Positions 20,767-30,646 of a stretch of DNA of 64,000 nucleotides are shown one piece after another. This stretch comes from Bryobacter sp. CoA8 C33. GTDB taxonomy: Bacteria > Acidobacteriota > Terriglobia > Bryobacterales > Bryobacteraceae. Every line of letters starts with the position of its first letter. The stretch's first letter is position 1. The notes below the pieces were generated by a model. That model was given only the letters and a program-made list of their open reading frames with translations, was not told the DNA's origin and searched no databases. The stretch lies in contig JAINDK010000012.1 in the NCBI GenBank assembly GCA_019931185.1, positions 62,001 through 126,000 on the forward strand, given 5' to 3'. The position numbers and the translations under genes are program-made.

Positions 20767-22476
20767 TTACTGGTACGGAACCGGTTTGATCACCATGCTT
20801 GTCGAAGAAAGTGTGCCGTAGTCGATGCCGGGTGCGGAGAATTCCCGCGTGGGGCTGATGCTGCCGACCCCAAGGGAGCCGCGCGGCGGCAGCGACGAGC
20901 CCGTGGGCGCCGGGGGAGAGGGAGGAATCGCCAGCAGAACCGCCGGTGGCACCGTGAATGTGCCAACGCTGGTGCGCTCGGTACAGACGAAGTATCCGCG
21001 GACTGAGTTGTCGTTGTTGTCGACCGGCGAGAAGCCATAGATTTGCACATAGCCGTTGGGGTCGCCGCCCGTCCAGTTTACGGTGAGCCCGTTGGCGCGA
21101 TTGACGGTGGTGGTGGCTGCCCGGTTGGTCCAGTTGAGATTGGGGGGCAGGGTGTAGGAAGTATTGAAGCCCCGCACATCGGTTCCGCCGGTGCCGTTGT
21201 TAAATGTGTAGTTACCCGCTACAAGATAGCCGTCCGGATCACCGCCGCCGAGGATGGGTCCGAGCAGGTCGCCCGTGGTCAGTGTCTCGTTGTAAGAGCC
21301 TGTCACGCCAGGGGCGCGGCGGAGGGTCCTTGCGCCCTTCGGGCCATTGAGGTTGATGGCCGTGCCGGCATCAAGACCGCGCGGGCGGATGGGGTCGGCC
21401 GGGAACAGGCCAGATGGATTGCCCACGAAAACGTAGCAGGTGCCCATTGAAGAACTGCCCGCCAGCCCCAGTTGAGCTCCGCTGTTGAGCGCGGCTGGCG
21501 TCAGTTCGGAAAAGTCGGCATTGCCACTGTCGATCTTGAGCGCTTGTATTCCGGCGACGGGAACTGAGTTTTCCAATTCGACGCGGGAGAGGCTCATGTT
21601 ACCCAAGCGGACTGAGCCACCGCTGTTGAGCCGGTCGAGCAGGGAACTCGGCAAGGACAGAGGATCGGAGCAGACGCCACCTGCCGCCGCCACGGCGATC
21701 GAAACATAGTTGCTGATGATGTCACCGATCTTGACCGCCACCGGAACCGAGCAGCCTTCGACACCGCCGGGCACGACGAAGTTGATCTGGTCGAGGCCGG
21801 CAAAGGTGGGGGCGCGTCCGGCGTAAGCCACGTTGGCGCGGCGGCTGCCGACATAAAGCTCTACATTGGCCGCATTGATCTGGACCGCGGGGGCGGCGCC
21901 ATTATCCGGCGTGCCGGCAGGCAGTGCGCCAAGGCCGGTGCCATAAAGAATCAGCGTCTGGCCGGGACGGGCCGATTGCAGCGCGGTATTCAACGGATGC
22001 GAAGTGGCCGACTCAAAGTTCGTAATCACGCCCGGCCCGGTGCCGCCCAGATTGAGCGAAAAGGTGCCGAAGGCGCTTGCTACGACGCGAAAGCTCCGTG
22101 CCGCACTCGTTTGGCCACCGAAGGAAACGGTAAGCGTGGCACTTCCGACCGGGGTGTTGGAAGGCAGGATCGCCGCTACCTGGCTCGCGACGGTGTAGAC
22201 CAGCGGGCAATCGAGACTTTGGCCGCCGCTGGTGACGCGGACGCTGGTGCCGGCCAAGGTATTCGGCAAGGGAAAGCCGGCCGCGGCCAGCGTAGCCGGG
22301 CCCATGCGGTCTCCGAAGATGACGAAAATCGAACCTTGCGCAATCGCGCCGCCGGGCAGGCGCGGGCTGAGATAGCTGGCGGCGTTCAGGATGCCGCCTT
22401 CGTCTACAAGCGGCTGGGCTTCCAGCGCGAGGCTGAGGCCCAAGGCCAAGGCCGCGCAGGACAGTACTCTTTGCAT
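20767..22476 (-). CDS. Secreted TIGR03437-type (Solibacter) surface protein, copy A
   Basis: 569 residues from Met at 22476 (five codons after another possible ATG); signal peptide MQRVLSCAALALGLSLALEA. GGILNAASYLSPRLPGGAIAQG opens the beta-rich domain typical of Solibacter extracellular proteins. Around residues 165-275 lies the classical TIGR03437 pattern (RPGQTLILYGTGLG...VAYAGRAPTFAGLDQINFVVP). The C-terminal half is a Gly/Asn-rich beta region with Cys pairs. No sorting signal or membrane anchor is visible. Function unknown; probably cell-surface or secreted. It is a tandem paralogue of the next gene upstream, with the first half nearly identical. Confidence 0.85.
   Translation of the reverse strand: MQRVLSCAALALGLSLALEAQPLVDEGGILNAASYLSPRLPGGAIAQGSIFVIFGDRMGPATLAAAGFPLPNTLAGTSVRVTSGGQSLDCPLVYTVASQVAAILPSNTPVGSATLTVSFGGQTSAARSFRVVASAFGTFSLNLGGTGPGVITNFESATSHPLNTALQSARPGQTLILYGTGLGALPAGTPDNGAAPAVQINAANVELYVGSRRANVAYAGRAPTFAGLDQINFVVPGGVEGCSVPVAVKIGDIISNYVSIAVAAAGGVCSDPLSLPSSLLDRLNSGGSVRLGNMSLSRVELENSVPVAGIQALKIDSGNADFSELTPAALNSGAQLGLAGSSSMGTCYVFVGNPSGLFPADPIRPRGLDAGTAINLNGPKGARTLRRAPGVTGSYNETLTTGDLLGPILGGGDPDGYLVAGNYTFNNGTGGTDVRGFNTSYTLPPNLNWTNRAATTTVNRANGLTVNWTGGDPNGYVQIYGFSPVDNNDNSVRGYFVCTERTSVGTFTVPPAVLLAIPPSPPAPTGSSLPPRGSLGVGSISPTREFSAPGIDYGTLSSTSMVIKPVPYQ
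22061..22161. repeat. Identical 101-bp tract shared with 23822-23922
   Basis: Bases 22061-22161 are identical to 23822-23922 (offset 1761). The identity lies within a longer nearly identical region covering roughly the first half of the two tandem surface protein genes. The second halves of the genes are clearly more diverged. The pattern suggests recent duplication with later gene conversion limited to the 5' halves, or relaxed divergence of the 3' halves. Confidence 0.9.
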
Positions 22477-22539
22477 AGGCTCATGATACAAGCTGGCTCC
22501 TGTCCGTGGACGGCTTGTAAGTGATAGCCAGACTTGACT

Positions 22540-24237
22540 TTACTGATATGTAACGGACTTGACCGCGATGGAGGTCGAGACAATCACGCCGTAATCGAGA
22601 CCCGGAGCGGTGAATTCACGCGGAGCGCTAACGCCGCCCACGCCCAGGGTGCTAAGTGGAAACAGGGCAGCACCGGATGGCGAAGGCGGAAGTGCCAGTA
22701 GAACGGCAGGCGGCACCGTGAAGGTGCCGGCGCTTGCCCGCTCCAGACAGGAGAAGAACCCCCCCACTGCGTCATCCTCGGAGCCGCTTAGGGAGAATCC
22801 ATAGATTTGTGCGAAGCTGCTGGCATCGCCGCCTGTCCAGTTCACGGTTACGCCATTAGCCCGGTTCACATTGGTAATGGCTGCTCTATTGGTCCAGTTT
22901 ACGTTCGGGGGCAGGGTAAAGGAGGCATTGAAGCCGCGAACGTCAGCCCCGCCCGAGCCATTGTTGAATGTGTAATTGCCGGCAACGAGGTAGCCATCGG
23001 GGTCACCACCGCCAGAAGCCCCGGGAATGCCAGTCGAAGCCAGCGTCTCACCATAAGACCCGATCAGATCTTCCTCGCGGCGTAAGGTCTTGGCGCCTTT
23101 CGGTCCATTGACGTTGATGGCCGTGCCGGCATCCAACCCGCGGCCACGGATCGGGTCGATCGGGATGAGATTGTTCTCACTTCCTACAAATACGAAGCAA
23201 GTGCCAATCGCGGAAGTACCGGCGACATTCAACTGCGCCCCTCTGTTGATGGTCGTCAGGTTGATTTCTTCAAAGTCGGCGCTGCCTGTATCGGTCTTGA
23301 GGGATTGCGTGCCTAAGAAAGGAAGCGTGATTTCCGCATCCACCCGCGACAGGCCGATACTGCCGTAGCGGACACTGCCCCCCCGGTTGATATTGTCCAG
23401 CAAAGTGCTGGACAGCCCGAGAGGCTCCGAACAGAGGCCGCCATTGGCGGCGATGGCGATCGTGGAATAGTTGCTGATGATGTTACCGATCTTGATCGCC
23501 ACGGGAACCGAGCAGCCTTCGATGCCGCCGGGCACGACGAAGTTGATCTGGTCGAGGCCGGCAAAGCCAGGGGCGCGTCCGGCATAAGCGACGCTGGCGC
23601 GGCGGCCGCCGACAAAGAGTTCCACACTAGAGGCGTTGATCTGGACGGCGGGGGCAGCGCCATTATCCGGCGTGCCGGCAGGCAGCGCGCCGAGCCCTGT
23701 GCCATACAGAATCAGCGTCTGGCCGGGGCGCGCCGAGCGCACCGCGGTATTCACAGGCTGTGAGGCGGCCGAATCAAAGTTCGTGATCACGCCCGGCCCG
23801 GTGCCGCCCTGATTGAGCGAGAAGGTGCCGAAGGCGCTTGCTACGACGCGAAAGCTCCGTGCCGCACTCGTTTGGCCACCGAAGGAAACGGTAAGCGTGG
23901 CACTTCCGACCGGGGTGTTGGAGGGCAGGATCGCCGCCACTTGGCGGGCGACGGTGTAGACCAGGGGGCAATCGAGACTCTGGCCGCCGCTGGTGACGCG
24001 GACGCTGGTGCCAGCTAGTGTATTCGGCAAGGGGAACCCGGCTGAGGCGAGCGTGGCGGGGCCCATGCGGTCCCCGAAGATGACGAAAATAGAGCCCTGC
24101 GCAATGGCGCCGCCGGGCAGGCGCGGGCTGAGATAGCTGGCGGCGTTCAGGATTCCGCCTTCGCTAACAAGCGGTTGGGCTTCCAGCACCATACTCAGGG
24201 CCGCAGCCAGAATCAAGCAGGATAAAAATTTACTCAT
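22540..24237 (-). CDS. Secreted TIGR03437-type (Solibacter) surface protein, copy B
   Basis: 565 residues from Met at 24237 (another ATG lies five codons upstream at 24252); signal peptide MSKFLSCLILAAALSMVLEA. Architecture is the same as copy A: the opening ILNAASYLSPRLPGG domain, the RPGQTLILYGTGLG...GRAPGFAGLDQINFVVP TIGR03437 core, and a C-terminal half with SFTLPPNVNWTNRAAITNVNRAN and TFTVPPAVLLALPPSP shared with A but less similar overall. Residues up to about 280 are almost identical to A. Function unknown, expected extracellular. The 63 bases between the copies hold no obvious terminator, so both may be co-transcribed. Confidence 0.85.
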   Translation of the reverse strand: MSKFLSCLILAAALSMVLEAQPLVSEGGILNAASYLSPRLPGGAIAQGSIFVIFGDRMGPATLASAGFPLPNTLAGTSVRVTSGGQSLDCPLVYTVARQVAAILPSNTPVGSATLTVSFGGQTSAARSFRVVASAFGTFSLNQGGTGPGVITNFDSAASQPVNTAVRSARPGQTLILYGTGLGALPAGTPDNGAAPAVQINASSVELFVGGRRASVAYAGRAPGFAGLDQINFVVPGGIEGCSVPVAIKIGNIISNYSTIAIAANGGLCSEPLGLSSTLLDNINRGGSVRYGSIGLSRVDAEITLPFLGTQSLKTDTGSADFEEINLTTINRGAQLNVAGTSAIGTCFVFVGSENNLIPIDPIRGRGLDAGTAINVNGPKGAKTLRREEDLIGSYGETLASTGIPGASGGGDPDGYLVAGNYTFNNGSGGADVRGFNASFTLPPNVNWTNRAAITNVNRANGVTVNWTGGDASSFAQIYGFSLSGSEDDAVGGFFSCLERASAGTFTVPPAVLLALPPSPSGAALFPLSTLGVGGVSAPREFTAPGLDYGVIVSTSIAVKSVTYQ

Positions 24238-24336
24238 GCAATAATAATACACACTAAAATTGACCAGAAACTAGACTTGTGAAGCTCGCATGGTTTTGAA
24301 CGGAATCGAAGTTTCTGCGCGCGGGGCCGCGGTCTA

Positions 24337-25704
24337 TCAACTCTCTTTCGGCCCAAGTCCCAGGGCCTTCATCTTGCGATAGAGGTGACTACGCTCGAGG
24401 CCAAGCACTTCCGCCGCTTTCGTGACATTACCGCCGGTCTCGTCGAGCTTCTTGAGAATGTACTCGCGCTCGGCGGCTTCCCGCACATCCTGCAGGCTGC
24501 CAAAGCGGTCCTGTATTCGCTCGGGCGCCAGCTTGCGCGGGGAGTTCAGCGGGATCTGCCGGGCTTCCACCCGGGTCTGCGGATTCATAATTACGATGCG
24601 CTCCATCAGGTTGCGCAACTCGCGCACGTTGCCGGGCCAGGAATACTCCTCGAGCACGTGGTAGGCTTCCGGCGTCAGTTCCTTTTGCTTGCGGCCGTAA
24701 GCAGTGGTGAACTCATGGAGAAATAAGTCCGCCAGCAACCCGATATCTTCCACGCGCTCTCGCAGTGGAGGCACATGAAAGGGGATGACATTGAGGCGAT
24801 AGAACAGGTCTTCGCGGAAGTTACCGCGCTCAATTTCATCCTCGAGATTCTTGTTGGTGGCGGCGATAACCCGCACATCGGAGCGGATACTCTCGTCAGC
24901 GCCAAGGGGCGCAAAGCGGCCTTCATCCAGAAAACGAAGCACCTTGGCCTGAGTCTTCAGACTCATGTCGCCCACTTCGTCGAGAAACAGCGTGCCGCCA
25001 TCGGCGCGTTCGAACTTGCCGATTTTGTCTTCGAGGGCGCCGGTAAAGCTGCCCTTGCGATGGCCAAACAGCTCGCTTTCGATCCAATCCTCGGGGATCG
25101 CGGCGCAGTTCACTTCCACGAAAGGTCCTTGCGCACGCGGGCTGGAGCGGCGAATCGCATGCGCCACCAATTCCTTGCCGCTGCCGCTTTCGCCAAAAAT
25201 CAAAACGCGGCCATTCGTGCGGGCCATCAGATCGAGCTGCTGGCGCAGGGCGCGCATCGGGACGCTATCGCCGATTATGCGGCGCTCCTCGCCGCTGGCG
25301 CCCTTCAGCCGTTCCACCTCGACTTCGAGCTTGCGTTGTTTGAGCGCGTTCTGAATCGTCACCGTGACTTTCTCGATTGTCAAGGGTTTTTCGAGAAAGT
25401 CGAAGGCTCCCAGCTTGGTCGCCTTGACGGCCGTTTCGATGTTGCCATGACCGCTGATCACGACGATGCCGGGCCGCTCACTGAGAGGCAGCTTCTGGAT
25501 CTCGGCGAGCACGGACAGGCCATCCATGCCCGGCAGCCAAACATCGAGCAGCAGCAGGTCATAGCTCCGTTTGTGCAACTCCTCGAGCGCCTCCTCCCCG
25601 CTGCCCACCACATGGACGCTGTAGCCTTCGTCCTCGAGCACGCCGCGCAAGGACTCGCGGATGCCCTGTTCGTCGTCGACGACCAGAATTTGGATGTACT
25701 TCAA
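24337..25704 (-). CDS. NtrC-family sigma-54-dependent response regulator (NtrX-like)
   Basis: 455 residues. The receiver domain (1-120) has the acidic pair DDE near residue 10 and phospho-acceptor Asp54 (LLLDVWLPGMDG). The AAA+ domain (about 145-375) has Walker A GESGSGKE (171-178), Walker B GGTLFLDEVGDMS and the sigma-54 contact loop as GSFTGA (218-223) instead of the usual GAFTGA. A Fis-type helix-turn-helix ends the protein (NVTKAAEVLGLERSHLYRKMKALGL). It should activate sigma-54 promoters after phosphorylation by the kinase whose gene overlaps it by four bases. Its targets are unknown. Confidence 0.92.
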   Translation of the reverse strand: MKYIQILVVDDEQGIRESLRGVLEDEGYSVHVVGSGEEALEELHKRSYDLLLLDVWLPGMDGLSVLAEIQKLPLSERPGIVVISGHGNIETAVKATKLGAFDFLEKPLTIEKVTVTIQNALKQRKLEVEVERLKGASGEERRIIGDSVPMRALRQQLDLMARTNGRVLIFGESGSGKELVAHAIRRSSPRAQGPFVEVNCAAIPEDWIESELFGHRKGSFTGALEDKIGKFERADGGTLFLDEVGDMSLKTQAKVLRFLDEGRFAPLGADESIRSDVRVIAATNKNLEDEIERGNFREDLFYRLNVIPFHVPPLRERVEDIGLLADLFLHEFTTAYGRKQKELTPEAYHVLEEYSWPGNVRELRNLMERIVIMNPQTRVEARQIPLNSPRKLAPERIQDRFGSLQDVREAAEREYILKKLDETGGNVTKAAEVLGLERSHLYRKMKALGLGPKES

Positions 25705-27785
25705 ACCTTAGCCTCCAAGGGCGTATCGCGGCCCGGCTCGGTATTTTCAGGGGTGCTCCAGACCGGGAATTCCACGATGAAGCGCGCCCCGGAGGGCTGA
25801 TTGTCCTCCACGCGAATCTGAGCCTGGTGCTCACCGAGGATGTGGTTGACGATGGCCAGCCCCAGGCCCGTGCCGCGGCCTTTGGTCGAGAAGTAGGGCA
25901 GGAAAAGCTTTTCCCGGTCTTCGGCGGAAACGCCGCTGCCGCTATCGGAGACGACGAGTTCCACGGTTTCGTTGCCCAGATCCTGAGTCGAAACGAAGAG
26001 CCGCCGGACAAGGGAATCCTGCATGGCCTCGGCGGCGTTGTCGACGAGGTTGACGACGACGCGTTTCAATTGTTCGGCGTCGCCATTGATGAGTGGGAGG
26101 CTGGGCTCGAGGGCAACCTTCAGCTCGATTCCTTCCAGCCGGCCGGAGAACACCTGCATGGCGTTGCTGACAACGGCATTGAGCGAGAGAGAACGGAGCT
26201 GCGCGGACGGGAAGCGGGCAAACTGGGAGAACTCGTCGACCAGGGTGCGCACGCTTTCCACCTCGCGGCTGATCATGGCCGAGCATTCCCGCAGTACGCG
26301 GGCATTCTCAGGGGCAATCGCCAACTTGTCCAACTGGCGGGCGATGCGTTCCGCGCTGAGGGCGATCGGCGTCAGCGGATTCTTGATCTCATGGGCGATA
26401 CGGCGCGCCACCTCATGCCAGGCCGCCTGTTTCTGCGCCCGCAACAATTCACTGGTATCCTCGACGACGACGACGAAGGAGGCGGCCGGCTTTTCCTCGA
26501 CCGCCGACACCGTGACGCCCAGATGGTAATGCCGCCCGTCGCGCAGGAAGTCAAATTGCCGCGTGGCGATGCCGGTGCGGCGGGCTCGCTTGAGCAGGTA
26601 GCGCAGCTCGGCGGACTCGTCCTTCGGCAGCAATTCATCAAGACGCGGCGTCAACTGCTGCGCCATCTCAGGGAAGATTTCGCGCATGGCCCGATTCATC
26701 CGCAGGACGCGGCCTTCGGCGCTGATGCTGACCACGCCGGTGGGAATATTTTCGAGAATAGCTTCGGTAAAGCGCCGCCGCCGCTCGAGCTCACGGGCGT
26801 TGGCCTCGAGGCTTTGCGTCATGTTGTTGAAGCCGCGGACGAGCGTCGCCAATTCGTCGGCCGCCCGCGTCTCCACGCGATAAGCCAGATTGCCTCCCCG
26901 TACCTCTTCGGCGCCCTTGAGCAATTCAGCGATCGGCAAGCTGATCTGGCGCGCCAGCGCCAGCACGACCCAGGTGGATAGGAACAGAATGAACAGACAA
27001 ATCAGAGCGAGCAGCAGGAGGTAGAATTGCCAGAGTTCGCGGCGGCTCACCTTCAGCAGGTCGTATTCGGCAATACTGTCGACCAGTTTCTGGTGCTCCT
27101 TTTCCGCGCTGGCTTCGAGGTGGCCGCGCACCCAGATGGTGCCGAGACCGGCGGGAAGCTCCGCGCGCGCCATGGGAAACCGGGTTGAAGTGCGGTCGGT
27201 CGAGCACAGGGGCAGGCGGCTGCCGTCCTTGGTTTCCAGTTGCGCCTCGGCCACATGCTTGGTCTCGCAGAATTGCCTGACCCAGGCTTGCAGCGAGCGG
27301 TCGCCGCGCGCATAGTCGGCTACCTCGGGGCGGCTGGCGAGGAGTTCCGCCTGCGCCCGGGCCTCGCCGGCGGCGCTCCGCTCGAGAGCCATCGCCATAC
27401 CCATCAGCGTGGTATTGGCGTTGACCGCGGGGCGCGAAAACCATTTGTCGAGATTGCGGTTCAATACGTAAACACTGAAGACGGCGAAGAAGAAGACTGG
27501 CAAAATCGTGATGCCGAGCGCGGCAGCGAGCAACTTGGTCCTGAGCCGGGAGCCCTCGCGGTTGTGCGCGCGCTCGAAGTAGATCTTGACGAAGCTGCGG
27601 AAGAGTAGAAACCCGATCAGAACCGTCAGCAAGAATACGAGCGTCGAGACGGCCCAGAAGACCGTTACCTGCTGTGGGCTGGCGGGCGTGAAATCGCCAA
27701 AGCTGAAGCTGCCCTGCCAAACCAGCAGGCCCACCAGTAAGGTGAGCAGCACGATACCAGCGGCAATCAGGAGTCGGCGGGGCAT
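25701..27785 (-). CDS. NtrY-like membrane sensor histidine kinase
   Basis: 694 residues. Two N-terminal helices (about 7-25 and 42-64) and a third near 95-115 precede an extracytoplasmic sensor region (about 120-240). A further helix (245-268), a HAMP segment, and a PAS domain (about 345-445) follow. The H-box is HEVARRIAHEIKNPLTPIALSAERI, and the kinase domain shows the N-box VVNLVDNAAEAM, SDSGSG and GRGTGLGLAIV. This order matches NtrY, the partner of NtrX. It starts 10 bases after the cupin stop and overlaps the regulator gene. Co-transcription with the acyl-carrier and SGNH genes upstream is likely from spacing. The signal is unknown. Confidence 0.92.
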   Translation of the reverse strand: MPRRLLIAAGIVLLTLLVGLLVWQGSFSFGDFTPASPQQVTVFWAVSTLVFLLTVLIGFLLFRSFVKIYFERAHNREGSRLRTKLLAAALGITILPVFFFAVFSVYVLNRNLDKWFSRPAVNANTTLMGMAMALERSAAGEARAQAELLASRPEVADYARGDRSLQAWVRQFCETKHVAEAQLETKDGSRLPLCSTDRTSTRFPMARAELPAGLGTIWVRGHLEASAEKEHQKLVDSIAEYDLLKVSRRELWQFYLLLLALICLFILFLSTWVVLALARQISLPIAELLKGAEEVRGGNLAYRVETRAADELATLVRGFNNMTQSLEANARELERRRRFTEAILENIPTGVVSISAEGRVLRMNRAMREIFPEMAQQLTPRLDELLPKDESAELRYLLKRARRTGIATRQFDFLRDGRHYHLGVTVSAVEEKPAASFVVVVEDTSELLRAQKQAAWHEVARRIAHEIKNPLTPIALSAERIARQLDKLAIAPENARVLRECSAMISREVESVRTLVDEFSQFARFPSAQLRSLSLNAVVSNAMQVFSGRLEGIELKVALEPSLPLINGDAEQLKRVVVNLVDNAAEAMQDSLVRRLFVSTQDLGNETVELVVSDSGSGVSAEDREKLFLPYFSTKGRGTGLGLAIVNHILGEHQAQIRVEDNQPSGARFIVEFPVWSTPENTEPGRDTPLEAKV

Positions 27786-27795
27786 TATTTACACT

Positions 27796-28161
27796 CTAGC
27801 GGTCGCGGTGTACGGTGTCGATGCTGAAGGCCGGCAGGCAGACGGCGATATAGTCGCAGCCTTCCGGGCCGGGTGTCGAATAGCGGATCCACTCTCCGGC
27901 TTCAGTGAGGATCGCCTCGCCCGCGGCGACGTCGCGCACGCCGCCTTGGTACTCGACCCGCATCATGCCGCGAAGCACTAGGGTCCACTCGTCGAATTCC
28001 GGCCGCTGGCCGGGCTCGCTCCATCCCGGGGGGCTGTGCATGTGGGCGATGCTGAGGCGCGGGTCGCCGGTGTTCACCCGGCCGGCGAACTCGTCAATGC
28101 GTTTTCCTCCAGGCACGGGAATCGTCGTGGGTGAGGCAATCCATTTGGGCATATTCAGCAT
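27796..28161 (-). CDS. Small cupin-domain protein
   Basis: 121 residues; the start overlaps the KASIII stop by seven bases (an alternative Met lies three codons on). A single cupin barrel: AHMHSPPGWSEPGQRPEFDEWTLVLRG contains the first motif and RDVAAGEAILTEAGEWIRYSTP resembles the second, though the metal-binding His set is incomplete (the H in HMHS, E in DEW, no clear second-motif His). No signal peptide. Catalytic activity cannot be assigned; small cupins act as isomerases, dioxygenases or ligand sensors. Its place between the KASIII-like gene and the kinase suggests a role in the same pathway. Confidence 0.75.
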   Translation of the reverse strand: MLNMPKWIASPTTIPVPGGKRIDEFAGRVNTGDPRLSIAHMHSPPGWSEPGQRPEFDEWTLVLRGMMRVEYQGGVRDVAAGEAILTEAGEWIRYSTPGPEGCDYIAVCLPAFSIDTVHRDR

Positions 28162-29078
28162 TCTCCCTCAAGCAGCAGGGCGCCCCACTGAAAACCGGCG
28201 CCGAAGGCAGCCATAACGATTGGTCCCCGCCAGGGGCCGGGCCACTCGGCGGCGGCGATCAGCAGCGATGCCGCGCTCGTGTTGCCATAAAGGCTGATGT
28301 TGCTGAAAAAGCTTTCGGGGGCGATGCCTAGGCTTTGGGCGATCTTGGCAATCAGATTGGCATTGGCCTGATGCATGAGATAGACGGCGATGTCCGTGGC
28401 GGGCCGCCGCTGCCGCTCAAGCAGGGTTGTGATCGCGGCGGGCACTTTGCGTGCCGCATGCAGAATCACCGATCTGCCATTCATCCGTATCGGCCCCTGA
28501 AGTTCGAGTTTCAACTCGCCGGCGCCTGTGCCGTCGGTACCCAGTTCCCAGTCGAGGATTCGGGCCAGTCCGCCGCGCGGATCGACCACGCAGGCGCCTG
28601 CCCCATCGCCGAAAAGCATGGCAGTGCCGGGCTCGAGTGGCTCGGCGAGCAGGAGCGGGCTTATCTTCTCGGCGCCGATCACGAGTACCGGCCCACGCGA
28701 GGGCGCCCAGAGCGCGGCCTGAACGAGCGCGAAGAGGGTTCCCGCACTGGGCATGGGCAGGTCGAGGGCTAAGGCTTGTGGAGCGGCGAGCAATTGCTGA
28801 ACCTCGACGGCCGGGCCGGGAAATCGGCGTTCCGCGCTGCCGGAAGCGACCAGGATCAGGCCCAATTCATTCGCCTCGACTCCGCTTGTGAGTAGAGCTT
28901 CCCGGCCCGCCGCCGCCGCCATGCTCGCCACGGACTCCCCCGCCGCCGCGAAGCGCCGCGTCGCGATGCCCGACATTTGCGTGATCCAAGCTTCCTCGAC
29001 CGACAGCAACCGCGCCATCTCTGTGTTCGTCACGATGCGTTCCGGCAGGTGCTTACCGAAGCCGCGTATCCACGGCAT
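28155..29078 (-). CDS. 3-oxoacyl-ACP synthase III homologue with Ser at the nucleophile position
   Basis: 307 residues, typical KASIII length. The nucleophile position, Cys in FabH (the AACSG/AACAG motif), aligns with Ser111 in LDLPMPSAGTLFAL. The other active-site residues are kept: His236 in LMHQANANLI and Asn266 in LYGNTSAAS. FAAAGESVASMAAAAGREAL and FGDGAGACVV are further family marks. FabH-like proteins with Ser here (for example DpsC of daunorubicin synthesis) are known as acyltransferases or starter-unit selectors, so this one more likely transfers or selects an acyl group than performs standard condensation. It follows the ACP gene by four bases. Confidence 0.8.
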   Translation of the reverse strand: MPWIRGFGKHLPERIVTNTEMARLLSVEEAWITQMSGIATRRFAAAGESVASMAAAAGREALLTSGVEANELGLILVASGSAERRFPGPAVEVQQLLAAPQALALDLPMPSAGTLFALVQAALWAPSRGPVLVIGAEKISPLLLAEPLEPGTAMLFGDGAGACVVDPRGGLARILDWELGTDGTGAGELKLELQGPIRMNGRSVILHAARKVPAAITTLLERQRRPATDIAVYLMHQANANLIAKIAQSLGIAPESFFSNISLYGNTSAASLLIAAAEWPGPWRGPIVMAAFGAGFQWGALLLEGEC

Positions 29079-29082
29079 CGGC

Positions 29083-29316
29083 TCAGATTCTCGCTTCCAC
29101 GTACTCCGCGATCTTGTCGATGGTTTCGAATTTACGCGGATTCAGATCGCCATCCGGAATCCGTATGCCGAACTCCTGCTCGAGTTTGCTTACCAGGTCG
29201 GTCAGGGCAAAGCTGTCAAGCAGGCCGCTTTCAAAAAGACTCTCGTCAGCGCCGATATCCACCGGTTTGCCGGCGATGGCCGCGATCAAGTCACTGATCT
29301 TGTTTTGCTGCATCAT
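29083..29316 (-). CDS. Acyl carrier protein (DltC/ACP-like)
   Basis: 77 residues. The helix-loop-helix with FESGLLDSFALTDLVSKLEQEFGI carries the Ser of the DSxxL phosphopantetheine attachment site (about residue 35). IRIPDGDLNPRKFETIDKIAEYV is the standard closing part, close in feel to D-alanine carrier proteins and specialised ACPs rather than to the housekeeping AcpP. It should carry an acyl group for the adjacent KASIII-like protein. The first 26 bases overlap the SGNH gene, showing tight coupling. Start may be either of the first two Met codons. Confidence 0.88.
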   Translation of the reverse strand: MMQQNKISDLIAAIAGKPVDIGADESLFESGLLDSFALTDLVSKLEQEFGIRIPDGDLNPRKFETIDKIAEYVEARI

Positions 29317-30646
29317 TCACTCCGTTCGCTTCGGAAAAAACTCGCTGCCGAATCCGGCGGAACTCCTCATAGTGCGCGATGAGATCGCGATAAAGCGTCT
29401 CGCCCACCAGCCGGTATCCGTTGCCCGTCAGATGTACGAAATCGCCTTGCGCGAAGCCGGCATAAACCCAACGCTTCATCGCTCCGGCGCCGCCCATACG
29501 CTCGCGCAGATCCCAAAAAGCGGCGCCAGCTTCGATGGCGGCCTCCCGTTGCGCCTCGCAGATCATGTCGAGCTGCGGTAGAGCCAGTACGCCTTTGCGG
29601 GTGCGCACCGCGCGGTCGGGGGGGCCGACCACCAGTAAACTTGCCGCCGGCGCCATCGCCCGGTAGCGGGCGAGCACTTCGCGGAACATCGCGCGATAAG
29701 ACTCCGCCGTCCAATCCCGCCGCGCGGCTTCATTGCTTCCATAAGCGAAGACAATCAGCGCCGGATTTCGTTTCCCTACATGCTCGCGCAACATCGATTC
29801 TTCCCACCGCAGGCTGAGCTGGGCCGAGGCGCCATTGATGCCCAGCGTCTCCCAGGTCAGGCCCCGATTGCGTTCCGTCACCCAGCCGAAGAGCTTCACC
29901 GGGGCGCTGCTGATCGTCTCCACCGTAAACCGCTTTAAGCCTTCCGGCACATCCAGCGCCCAATAGCCCGGGCCGAGCGAGCCCTCGGTCTCGACCGTGG
30001 CCACCTCGGCGCCATCGAGGTAGATCCGGAAGCTGCCCCCGCCGGGCTGCCGGAGGAAGTGCAGTTCCACGCGGTCGCCCTCGGCGTCGAGATATACCAT
30101 CTCGCCGGCGCGCCGAGTCACGATGGCGGCGCCACCAAGGCCATAAAAGCCGTCCTCGCCTTTTGTCAACAGCCCTTCGGTTTCCCAGCGCGGGCTCTGT
30201 CCGCCCTTCACGTCATAACGCCGGTAGCCGGCAAAGGGCCGGCCGGCAAAGGAATAGCCCGCTCCACCATCGCCAAATCGGCCTTGGAATAGCTGCCGCA
30301 ACTGATGCGCCCAATCATCACTGGCCGTGTGAGAATCGCCATACTGCAGCACGTGCAACGATTGCGGCCCGGTAATGCCGGGTTGCTCCAACTGGTAGAG
30401 CTGTTCGAAAAAAGGAATCAAGGCGGCCGAGTTTTCCAGTGCCGCCGCAGCCACCGCGTCCATGGCTCCGGAAACATACTCGCGCGAGGCGGCCCGCACC
30501 TTTTGACTGACCACGGGGGGCTTCGGCACGGCGGTGCGTTTTCTCGCCGCTGTCGTTTTCTTGCGGGGCGCGGGCCTGCGCGGCGCGCCGGCAACAACGC
30601 CGCCGAGGACCAGCATGACCAGAGCCCATTTGTATCCGCGCAACAT
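29291..30646 (-). CDS. Secreted SGNH/GDSL-family hydrolase or O-acyltransferase
   Basis: 451 residues. A membrane leader (LVMLVLGGVVAG) and a basic Ala/Pro/Lys-rich segment (21-50) precede the SGNH domain. Block I is QYGDSHTASDDW with Ser105, block II GINGAS, block III AYGSNEA, and block V DFVHL with Asp402 and His405. The triad is therefore complete. GDSHTA rather than GDSL resembles cell-envelope O-acyl enzymes of the PatB/AlgX type. A domain of about 130 residues is inserted between blocks I and II (beta-rich; possible carbohydrate-binding part). It likely adds or removes an acyl group on an envelope polymer. GAGAGG about 8 bases before the ATG gives a good ribosome site. Confidence 0.8.
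   Translation of the reverse strand: MLRGYKWALVMLVLGGVVAGAPRRPAPRKKTTAARKRTAVPKPPVVSQKVRAASREYVSGAMDAVAAAALENSAALIPFFEQLYQLEQPGITGPQSLHVLQYGDSHTASDDWAHQLRQLFQGRFGDGGAGYSFAGRPFAGYRRYDVKGGQSPRWETEGLLTKGEDGFYGLGGAAIVTRRAGEMVYLDAEGDRVELHFLRQPGGGSFRIYLDGAEVATVETEGSLGPGYWALDVPEGLKRFTVETISSAPVKLFGWVTERNRGLTWETLGINGASAQLSLRWEESMLREHVGKRNPALIVFAYGSNEAARRDWTAESYRAMFREVLARYRAMAPAASLLVVGPPDRAVRTRKGVLALPQLDMICEAQREAAIEAGAAFWDLRERMGGAGAMKRWVYAGFAQGDFVHLTGNGYRLVGETLYRDLIAHYEEFRRIRQRVFSEANGVNDAAKQDQ

Follow-up and report, generated by a model that had tools for sequence, protein, structure and literature searches.

A Gene Set of Acidobacteria Suggests an Undescribed Way of Supplying Acyl Groups for Wall Decoration

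Systems that combine an MBOAT protein with SGNH proteins decorate bacterial walls and surface polymers. This report concerns a gene set of Acidobacteria that suggests an undescribed way of supplying acyl groups to such a system. It was met in a stretch of 64,000 nucleotides, here called the window, from Bryobacter sp. CoA8 C33 (assembly GCA_019931185.1, contig JAINDK010000012.1, positions 62,001 to 126,000 of the forward strand), in which three adjoining genes encode a homologue of 3-ketoacyl-acyl carrier protein synthase III with Ser at the position of the catalytic Cys (KASIII-Ser), a private acyl carrier protein (ACP), and an exported-looking SGNH protein (SGNH1). Regarding the origin of the acyl group, passages of PMC12148441 describe two donor routes for MBOAT-SGNH systems, namely, acetyl-CoA in the case of PatA and a D-Ala-loaded carrier protein in that of Dlt. 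The same passages report that the Tyr of the FxYxxF motif of PatA is auto-acetylated and shuttles the acetyl group, and that DltX provides the shuttle residue in its system.

Dlt papers aside, searches of the open-access PMC literature listed nothing that connects MBOAT-SGNH clusters with either a KASIII or an ACP, and an open-access PMC search naming Acidobacteriota found no such wall-modification study. We favor, with modest confidence, the view that the locus belongs to an envelope acylation system of the PatA/PatB/Ape1 type, to which a KASIII-Ser loader and a private ACP have been added, and that these feed an MBOAT, a second SGNH protein (SGNH2), and SGNH1. The three genes of the window would then represent the cytoplasmic supply arm and one SGNH member of the system.

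The serine form of KASIII and its clade

KASIII-Ser (28155–29078, minus strand) has 307 amino acids and passes the Pfam cut-offs of ACP_syn_III and ACP_syn_III_C. When aligned with FabH structures by phmmer, its Ser111 (codon AGT, 28748–28746) falls opposite the catalytic Cys of FabH, the Cys112 position, while His236 (28373–28371) and Asn266 (28283–28281) fall opposite the other two catalytic residues. The active site thus holds Ser and not Cys, as a first-pass annotation of the window had proposed.

In a single alignment, Ser occupies the Cys position in all 45 unique members of the clade, and Cys occupies it in the FabH proteins that were kept (74/74); His and Asn are each found in 44/44 Ser forms, with one row ending before both positions. 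No other tip falls within the clade that the 45 members form; its support is 0.992 (0.993 once the diagnostic columns are removed), and it spans the class of the window's organism and at least one further class of Acidobacteriota. Because a tree-delimited clade is entirely Ser and FabH in the same alignment is entirely Cys, Ser111 is, on the sequences compared, a genuine feature of this clade, and the same counts rule out chance or an error of sequencing or assembly.

These sequences came from three sources. Among 61 related genomes, 18 hold KASIII-Ser at an identity of at least 43%, and an alignment made on this set could be read for 18/18 KASIII-Ser and 11/12 FabH proteins. A scan of genome contigs contributed its best 80 loci, of which L053–L074 show 41–68% identity and the other 58 show 31–39%, a coverage that speaks for Acidobacteriota and not for other phyla. 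Finally, a sample of 396 genomes across the phylum gave 13 matches with E values of 1.7e-108 or better, all of which read Ser, some of them through a duplicate locus. Five weaker matches of this sample (G123, G350, G216, G107, and G299; E 1e-76 to 1e-84) were left out of KASIII-Ser; among them, G123 and G350 are Cys forms of a sister clade discussed later, and G216 is a Cys FabH. Loci L001, L053, L054, L058, and L070 were dropped as repeats of genomes already counted, and L152 and L154 were excluded from the tree. As a side observation, the record of L070 (CALQCC020000004.1) is titled Bordetella parapertussis and carries an acidobacterial KASIII locus, and its title looks like that of a mislabeled metagenome bin.

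By sequence and by predicted fold, KASIII-Ser is closest to FabH. Its predicted model has a mean pLDDT of 91.7 and superposes on FabH 4z19 with a VIA-align Z of 46.1 and an rmsd of 1.5 over 302 aligned residues, and the fold relatives among the matches listed are FabH, BioZ, PqsD, and other KASIII proteins, with DpsC, CerJ, and ChlB3 absent there. Its scores lie below both FabH cut-offs of NCBIfam (NF006829, 217.6 versus 249; TIGR00747, 190.8 versus 292.1). The first-pass annotation had compared the protein with acyl selectors of the DpsC type; this closeness to FabH does not support the comparison, and the membership must be abandoned given a catalytic set of Ser-His-Asn, as opposed to the Ser-His-His that part of PMC9573744 gives for DpsC.

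The genome encodes further proteins of this kind. A separate Cys FabH (C110) passes both cut-offs (406.2 and 369.9), and a second Cys protein (C111) passes one of them. On contig C19 (L171:1857–2879), a third KASIII-like paralogue, 30% identical, carries His at the Cys position (GHSG) and has no cassette linkage there; it scores 246.2 against 249 at one FabH cut-off and well below the other, and its row, with His in the Ser/Cys column, was dropped from the FabH Cys count.

Further positions were compared between the Ser forms and FabH. Phe is found in 38/45 Ser forms at the Phe87 position, which we take to be the chain-length gate of FabH. Arg249 and Lys214, presumably the residues by which FabH docks its ACP (the malonyl-ACP or fatty-acid ACP patch), are altered: the former position is R in 74/74 FabH proteins versus N in 41/44 Ser forms, and the latter is K or R in 73/74 FabH proteins versus L or M in 41/45 Ser forms.

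The carrier protein, the SGNH proteins, and the MBOAT partner

The ACP (29083–29316, minus strand) has 77 amino acids, with its phosphopantetheine Ser35 encoded at 29214–29212, and passes the Pfam PP-binding model (48.7 versus 20.8 bits). The attachment Ser lies in a DSF motif, which occurs in 34/34 of the ACPs extracted. D-alanyl carrier proteins are among its best matches of solved structure, and its best NCBIfam model is DltC, below the cut-off (44.7 versus 68). Its dedication to KASIII, suggested by the first-pass annotation from this one locus, is borne out by the relatives: of the unique loci with at least 300 bases upstream, 44 of them Ser and one Cys, 45/45 encode a same-strand ACP upstream of KASIII (L072, with 72 bases, was omitted), and the gap is no more than 35 bases in 40 of the 45, the largest being 485.

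SGNH1 (29291–30646, minus strand) has 451 amino acids and, like KASIII and the ACP, had been placed correctly. The GDSH, Asn, and DxxH blocks are kept, with Ser105 (in GDSHT), Asn305, Asp402, and His405 conserved, and by eye the N-terminus looks like a signal peptide or an anchor, in line with the exported GDSH enzyme of the earlier description. The nearest solved chains by sequence are those of the peptidoglycan O-acetylesterase Ape1 of Neisseria meningitidis and of Campylobacter jejuni (phmmer, 4k3u, E 7.9e-29), and the first five Foldseek ranks of the predicted fold are all Ape1 (TMt 0.83–0.85, E of 1.2e-25 or better versus 1.5e-10 for the next match). The middle region is β-rich and resembles a carbohydrate-binding module (CBM); its counterpart in Ape1 is described as CBM35-like in a portion of PMC6174289.

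The same annotation noted that no membrane acyl carrier step of the MBOAT type is encoded here, which is correct for the window and misleading for the genome: an MBOAT-SGNH2 pair, orthologous to the pair found in the cassettes of relatives, lies on a separate contig, C72. The idea that the organism has no MBOAT is thereby ruled out, and a gene for the export step is present. Many other genera have the genes together in the order MBOAT-SGNH2-SGNH1-ACP-KASIII, e.g., in records titled Bryobacterales or Bryobacteraceae, in Granulicella sp. S190, and in G. rosea DSM 18704. In three loci (L048, L160, and L161), the MBOAT and SGNH genes adjoin ACP-KASIII and are encoded on the other strand; L160 and L161 have two SGNH matches before the MBOAT and one after it, and some lineages may therefore have three SGNH proteins.

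The MBOAT passes its Pfam cut-off, has DltB as its nearest solved structure, and scores 177.6 versus a cut-off of 375 with the DltB model of NCBIfam. The sequence F-x-Y-x-x-F is found at the C-terminus of 23/23 listed MBOATs, including a second one of the same genome. SGNH2 has a conserved triad (GDSP, YGTNES, and D..HP), and its nearest solved chain is Ape1, in a comparison that included no PatB sequence. A gene of the metallo-β-lactamase fold (Pfam Lactamase_B; L051:1501–2493) lies beside or near the MBOAT-SGNH2 pair on C72 and may belong to the system as well; look-alike open reading frames (ORFs), recognized by eye from the first residues, were seen beside or near MBOAT-SGNH2 in L033, L038, L043, L165, and L168.

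MBOAT and KASIII-Ser also travel together, with the reservation that the genomes are related and the counts given here are not independent events. Among the 34 loci with more than 6 kb upstream, 27 have an MBOAT within 12 kb of KASIII, and the seven others all belong to genomes with an MBOAT elsewhere, i.e., the organism's own, G006, G031, G348, and those of L059, L065, and L074 (the last with a match of 41% identity). Across the 61 relatives, the close MBOAT clade (at least 45% identity) is present in 18/18 genomes with KASIII-Ser versus 2/43 without it, the two being G018, with its match at a contig end, and G026. In the sample of 396 genomes, an MBOAT at E of 1e-85 or better occurs in 17, made up of 11 with KASIII-Ser, four with the Cys sister form, G231, and G252, whose MBOAT sits on a short contig that ends there; the KASIII-Ser genomes G160 and G196 have a weaker MBOAT match only. 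The 58 FabH loci L075–L132 (3.3 to 21 kb, 44 of them over 10 kb) gave no match to an MBOAT or SGNH protein, a single weak one to the ACP (L115), and two to histidine kinases.

Within G026, the place of KASIII downstream of the ACP (L165:2127–4581) holds ORFs that resemble, by eye, a mobile element and an antitoxin, and a Cys-type sister KASIII was seen on another contig (L166).

The window places the three genes in a longer minus-strand run that reads SGNH1-ACP-KASIII-cupin-histidine kinase-response regulator from 30646 to 24337, with neighbors that overlap by 4 to 26 bases or are separated by gaps of 4 to 10 bases. At its end SGNH1 shares 26 bases with the ACP, and KASIII starts 4 bases past the ACP. 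The cupin protein (27796–28161; Pfam Cupin_2) overlaps the end of KASIII by 7 bases and is followed by a histidine kinase (25701–27785; HAMP-PAS-HisKA-HATPase by Pfam) and a σ54-type response regulator (24337–25704), whose best NCBIfam model, NtrX, is below its cut-off (465.9 versus 600 bits). The order from SGNH1 to the kinase is kept in 8/8 searched genomes of the genus, and the regulator is present in seven of them, the contig of the eighth stopping inside the kinase gene. Among all the loci searched, a cupin adjoins KASIII in these eight genomes only. Promoter and terminator scans gave counts no higher than the shuffle level. Farther along the window (20767–24252), two adjoining ORFs of about 570 amino acids appear by eye to be paralogues whose N-terminal halves are nearly identical, a pattern that a tandem duplication would leave.

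A proposed supply route and its alternatives

From these genes we infer the reactions, the acyl group, the direction of its flow, and the acceptor as follows. KASIII-Ser would become acylated at Ser111 with a short group, most likely acetyl, supplied by an acyl thioester, and would hand this group to the phosphopantetheine of the private ACP, acting as a transacylase and not as a condensing enzyme. We read it in this way because the nucleophile is exchanged, the His, Asn, and Phe87 positions are kept, and the FabH docking patch is gone, a loss that is expected if the protein no longer serves the fatty-acid ACP. The acyl-ACP would then supply the MBOAT in the way that DltC supplies DltB, and the acyl group would reach the Tyr of the C-terminal FxYxxF at the outer face, from where SGNH2 may move it to a cell-wall glycan, probably peptidoglycan. 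SGNH1, as a putative esterase of the Ape1 type, would remove or redistribute acyl groups outside. Regarding the two fates of the acyl group that the first-pass annotation had offered, its transfer to an extracytoplasmic acceptor gains from the MBOAT and second SGNH gene clustered in many relatives, and because of this linkage the alternative of a small acylated molecule becomes less likely.

Several observations weigh against this route. The positions of Arg36 and Arg151, which we take to be the CoA contacts of FabH, are altered in the Ser forms, the former being mostly V, M, or A and the latter basic in just 33/45, and acyl-CoA may therefore not be the donor. In the organism itself, the supply half and the MBOAT-SGNH2 half are unlinked. 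Its second MBOAT (C107), 43% identical to the first, has the same FxYxxF end and no ACP or SGNH match nearby, so the motif is not a marker of ACP use. G231 has an MBOAT match and no match to SGNH1, SGNH2, ACP, or KASIII within about 9 kb on either side, and G026 has MBOAT-SGNH2-SGNH1-ACP without an adjoining KASIII. Moreover, three genomes of other or deeper lineages (G123, G135, and G398) hold the cassette SGNH1-MBOAT-SGNH2-ACP-KASIII with a Cys KASIII, and the clade to which these belong shares with the Ser forms the Asn at the Arg249 position. Lastly, PatA takes acetyl from acetyl-CoA, according to passages of PMC12148441, and such a system could in principle do without an ACP.

The clade just mentioned has five members, the KASIII proteins of G123, G135, and G398 and two unlinked Cys proteins, and groups as the sister of the Ser forms (with a joint support of 1.0); G350 has SGNH1-MBOAT-SGNH2-ACP and a Cys KASIII of the sister type on another contig. 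Since this sister clade has both, neither the association with MBOAT and ACP nor the docking change is tied to Ser, and the Cys cassettes rule out that Ser is essential to the system. Most simply, the exchange of Cys for Ser was a later single step.

The Cys cassettes also favor the possibility that KASIII-Ser still condenses, placing a short 3-oxoacyl group such as acetoacetyl on the private ACP for export by the MBOAT system. The KASIII fold is complete, His236 and Asn266 are retained, and DpsC, which has Ser, is grouped among Claisen-condensation enzymes in part of PMC9573744. Nevertheless, the cassette genes are tightly spaced in most loci, with no room between them for a reductase or acyltransferase gene. 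The positions of Arg249 and Lys214, which presumably dock malonyl-ACP, are in addition replaced in nearly all Ser forms, and we regard continued condensation as unlikely. The altered CoA-contact positions would suit a different donor, namely the fatty-acid ACP or some other ACP, whose acyl group KASIII-Ser would move to the private one; in that case a fatty or branched chain may be exported. Such a transfer is hard to reconcile with the loss of what we take to be the docking patch for the fatty-acid ACP and with the frequent Phe at the Phe87 position, presumably a restriction on chain length. ChlB3 offers a precedent for transfer between two ACPs (in part of PMC9573744), but the match of KASIII-Ser to ChlB3 has an E value of 3.1e-6 versus 5.6e-48 for FabH, and we consider this transfer distinctly unlikely. 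Finally, the loss of the canonical nucleophile could mean that KASIII-Ser has no catalytic activity and instead acts on an ACP-MBOAT complex as its scaffold or regulator; we find this highly improbable because a dead enzyme would not need the Ser, His, and Asn that are invariant in the clade.

If the transacylase route is followed further, a more specific and more tentative proposal can be made, one that is a serious possibility without commanding our full assent: a KASIII that changed Cys for Ser once in Acidobacteriota may have become a dedicated acyl-ACP loader in replacement of the AMP ligase of Dlt, such that the private ACP, and not acetyl-CoA, feeds a PatA-like exporter, the acyl group possibly being other than acetyl. 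If true, MBOAT-SGNH decoration would have a third donor route, in which a KASIII charges the carrier, and an enzyme of fatty-acid synthesis would have been turned into a loader via a rebuilt docking face and an exchanged nucleophile. The Cys form, the Ser form, and the cluster without KASIII offer a natural series for testing this, and the gene set would give a starting point for the study of wall modification in this phylum.

Comparison with described systems

FabH shares with KASIII-Ser the fold, the His, the Asn, and the Phe at the Phe87 position, and differs from it in having Cys where the latter has Ser, in the changed Arg249, Lys214, and Arg36 positions, and in both model cut-offs, which KASIII-Ser misses. 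DpsC, CerJ, and ChlB3 likewise use the KASIII fold in priming or acyl transfer, and DpsC also has Ser, according to part of PMC9573744; the catalytic sets given there, Ser-His-His for DpsC and Cys-His-Asp for ChlB3, contrast with the Ser-His-Asn of KASIII-Ser.

The Dlt system (DltA, DltB, DltC, DltD, and DltX) resembles the one discussed here in that the MBOAT has its closest solved structure in DltB and the ACP its best NCBIfam model in DltC. It differs in three respects: the six PF00501 matches of the organism's genome, the only one considered on this point, include none on contigs C83 or C72; the shuttle Tyr motif is on the MBOAT itself; and the MBOAT and the ACP fall below the DltB and DltC cut-offs.

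The system looks like PatA-PatB-Ape1, the cluster that O-acetylates peptidoglycan in Gram-negative bacteria, for which portions of PMC12148441 and PMC6174289 describe two SGNH genes, one of them of the Ape1 fold, and an MBOAT whose C-terminus bears the FxYxxF Tyr. This gene content recurs in many relatives and is split over two contigs in the organism's own genome, and, judged from sequences and predicted models, the features of gene content, fold, and motif that were compared agree. The difference lies in the private ACP and the KASIII that the new cassette adds, PatA reportedly using acetyl-CoA as its donor. The system would thus be a variant of MBOAT-SGNH envelope acylation, and neither FabH, nor a primer of the DpsC type, nor Dlt.

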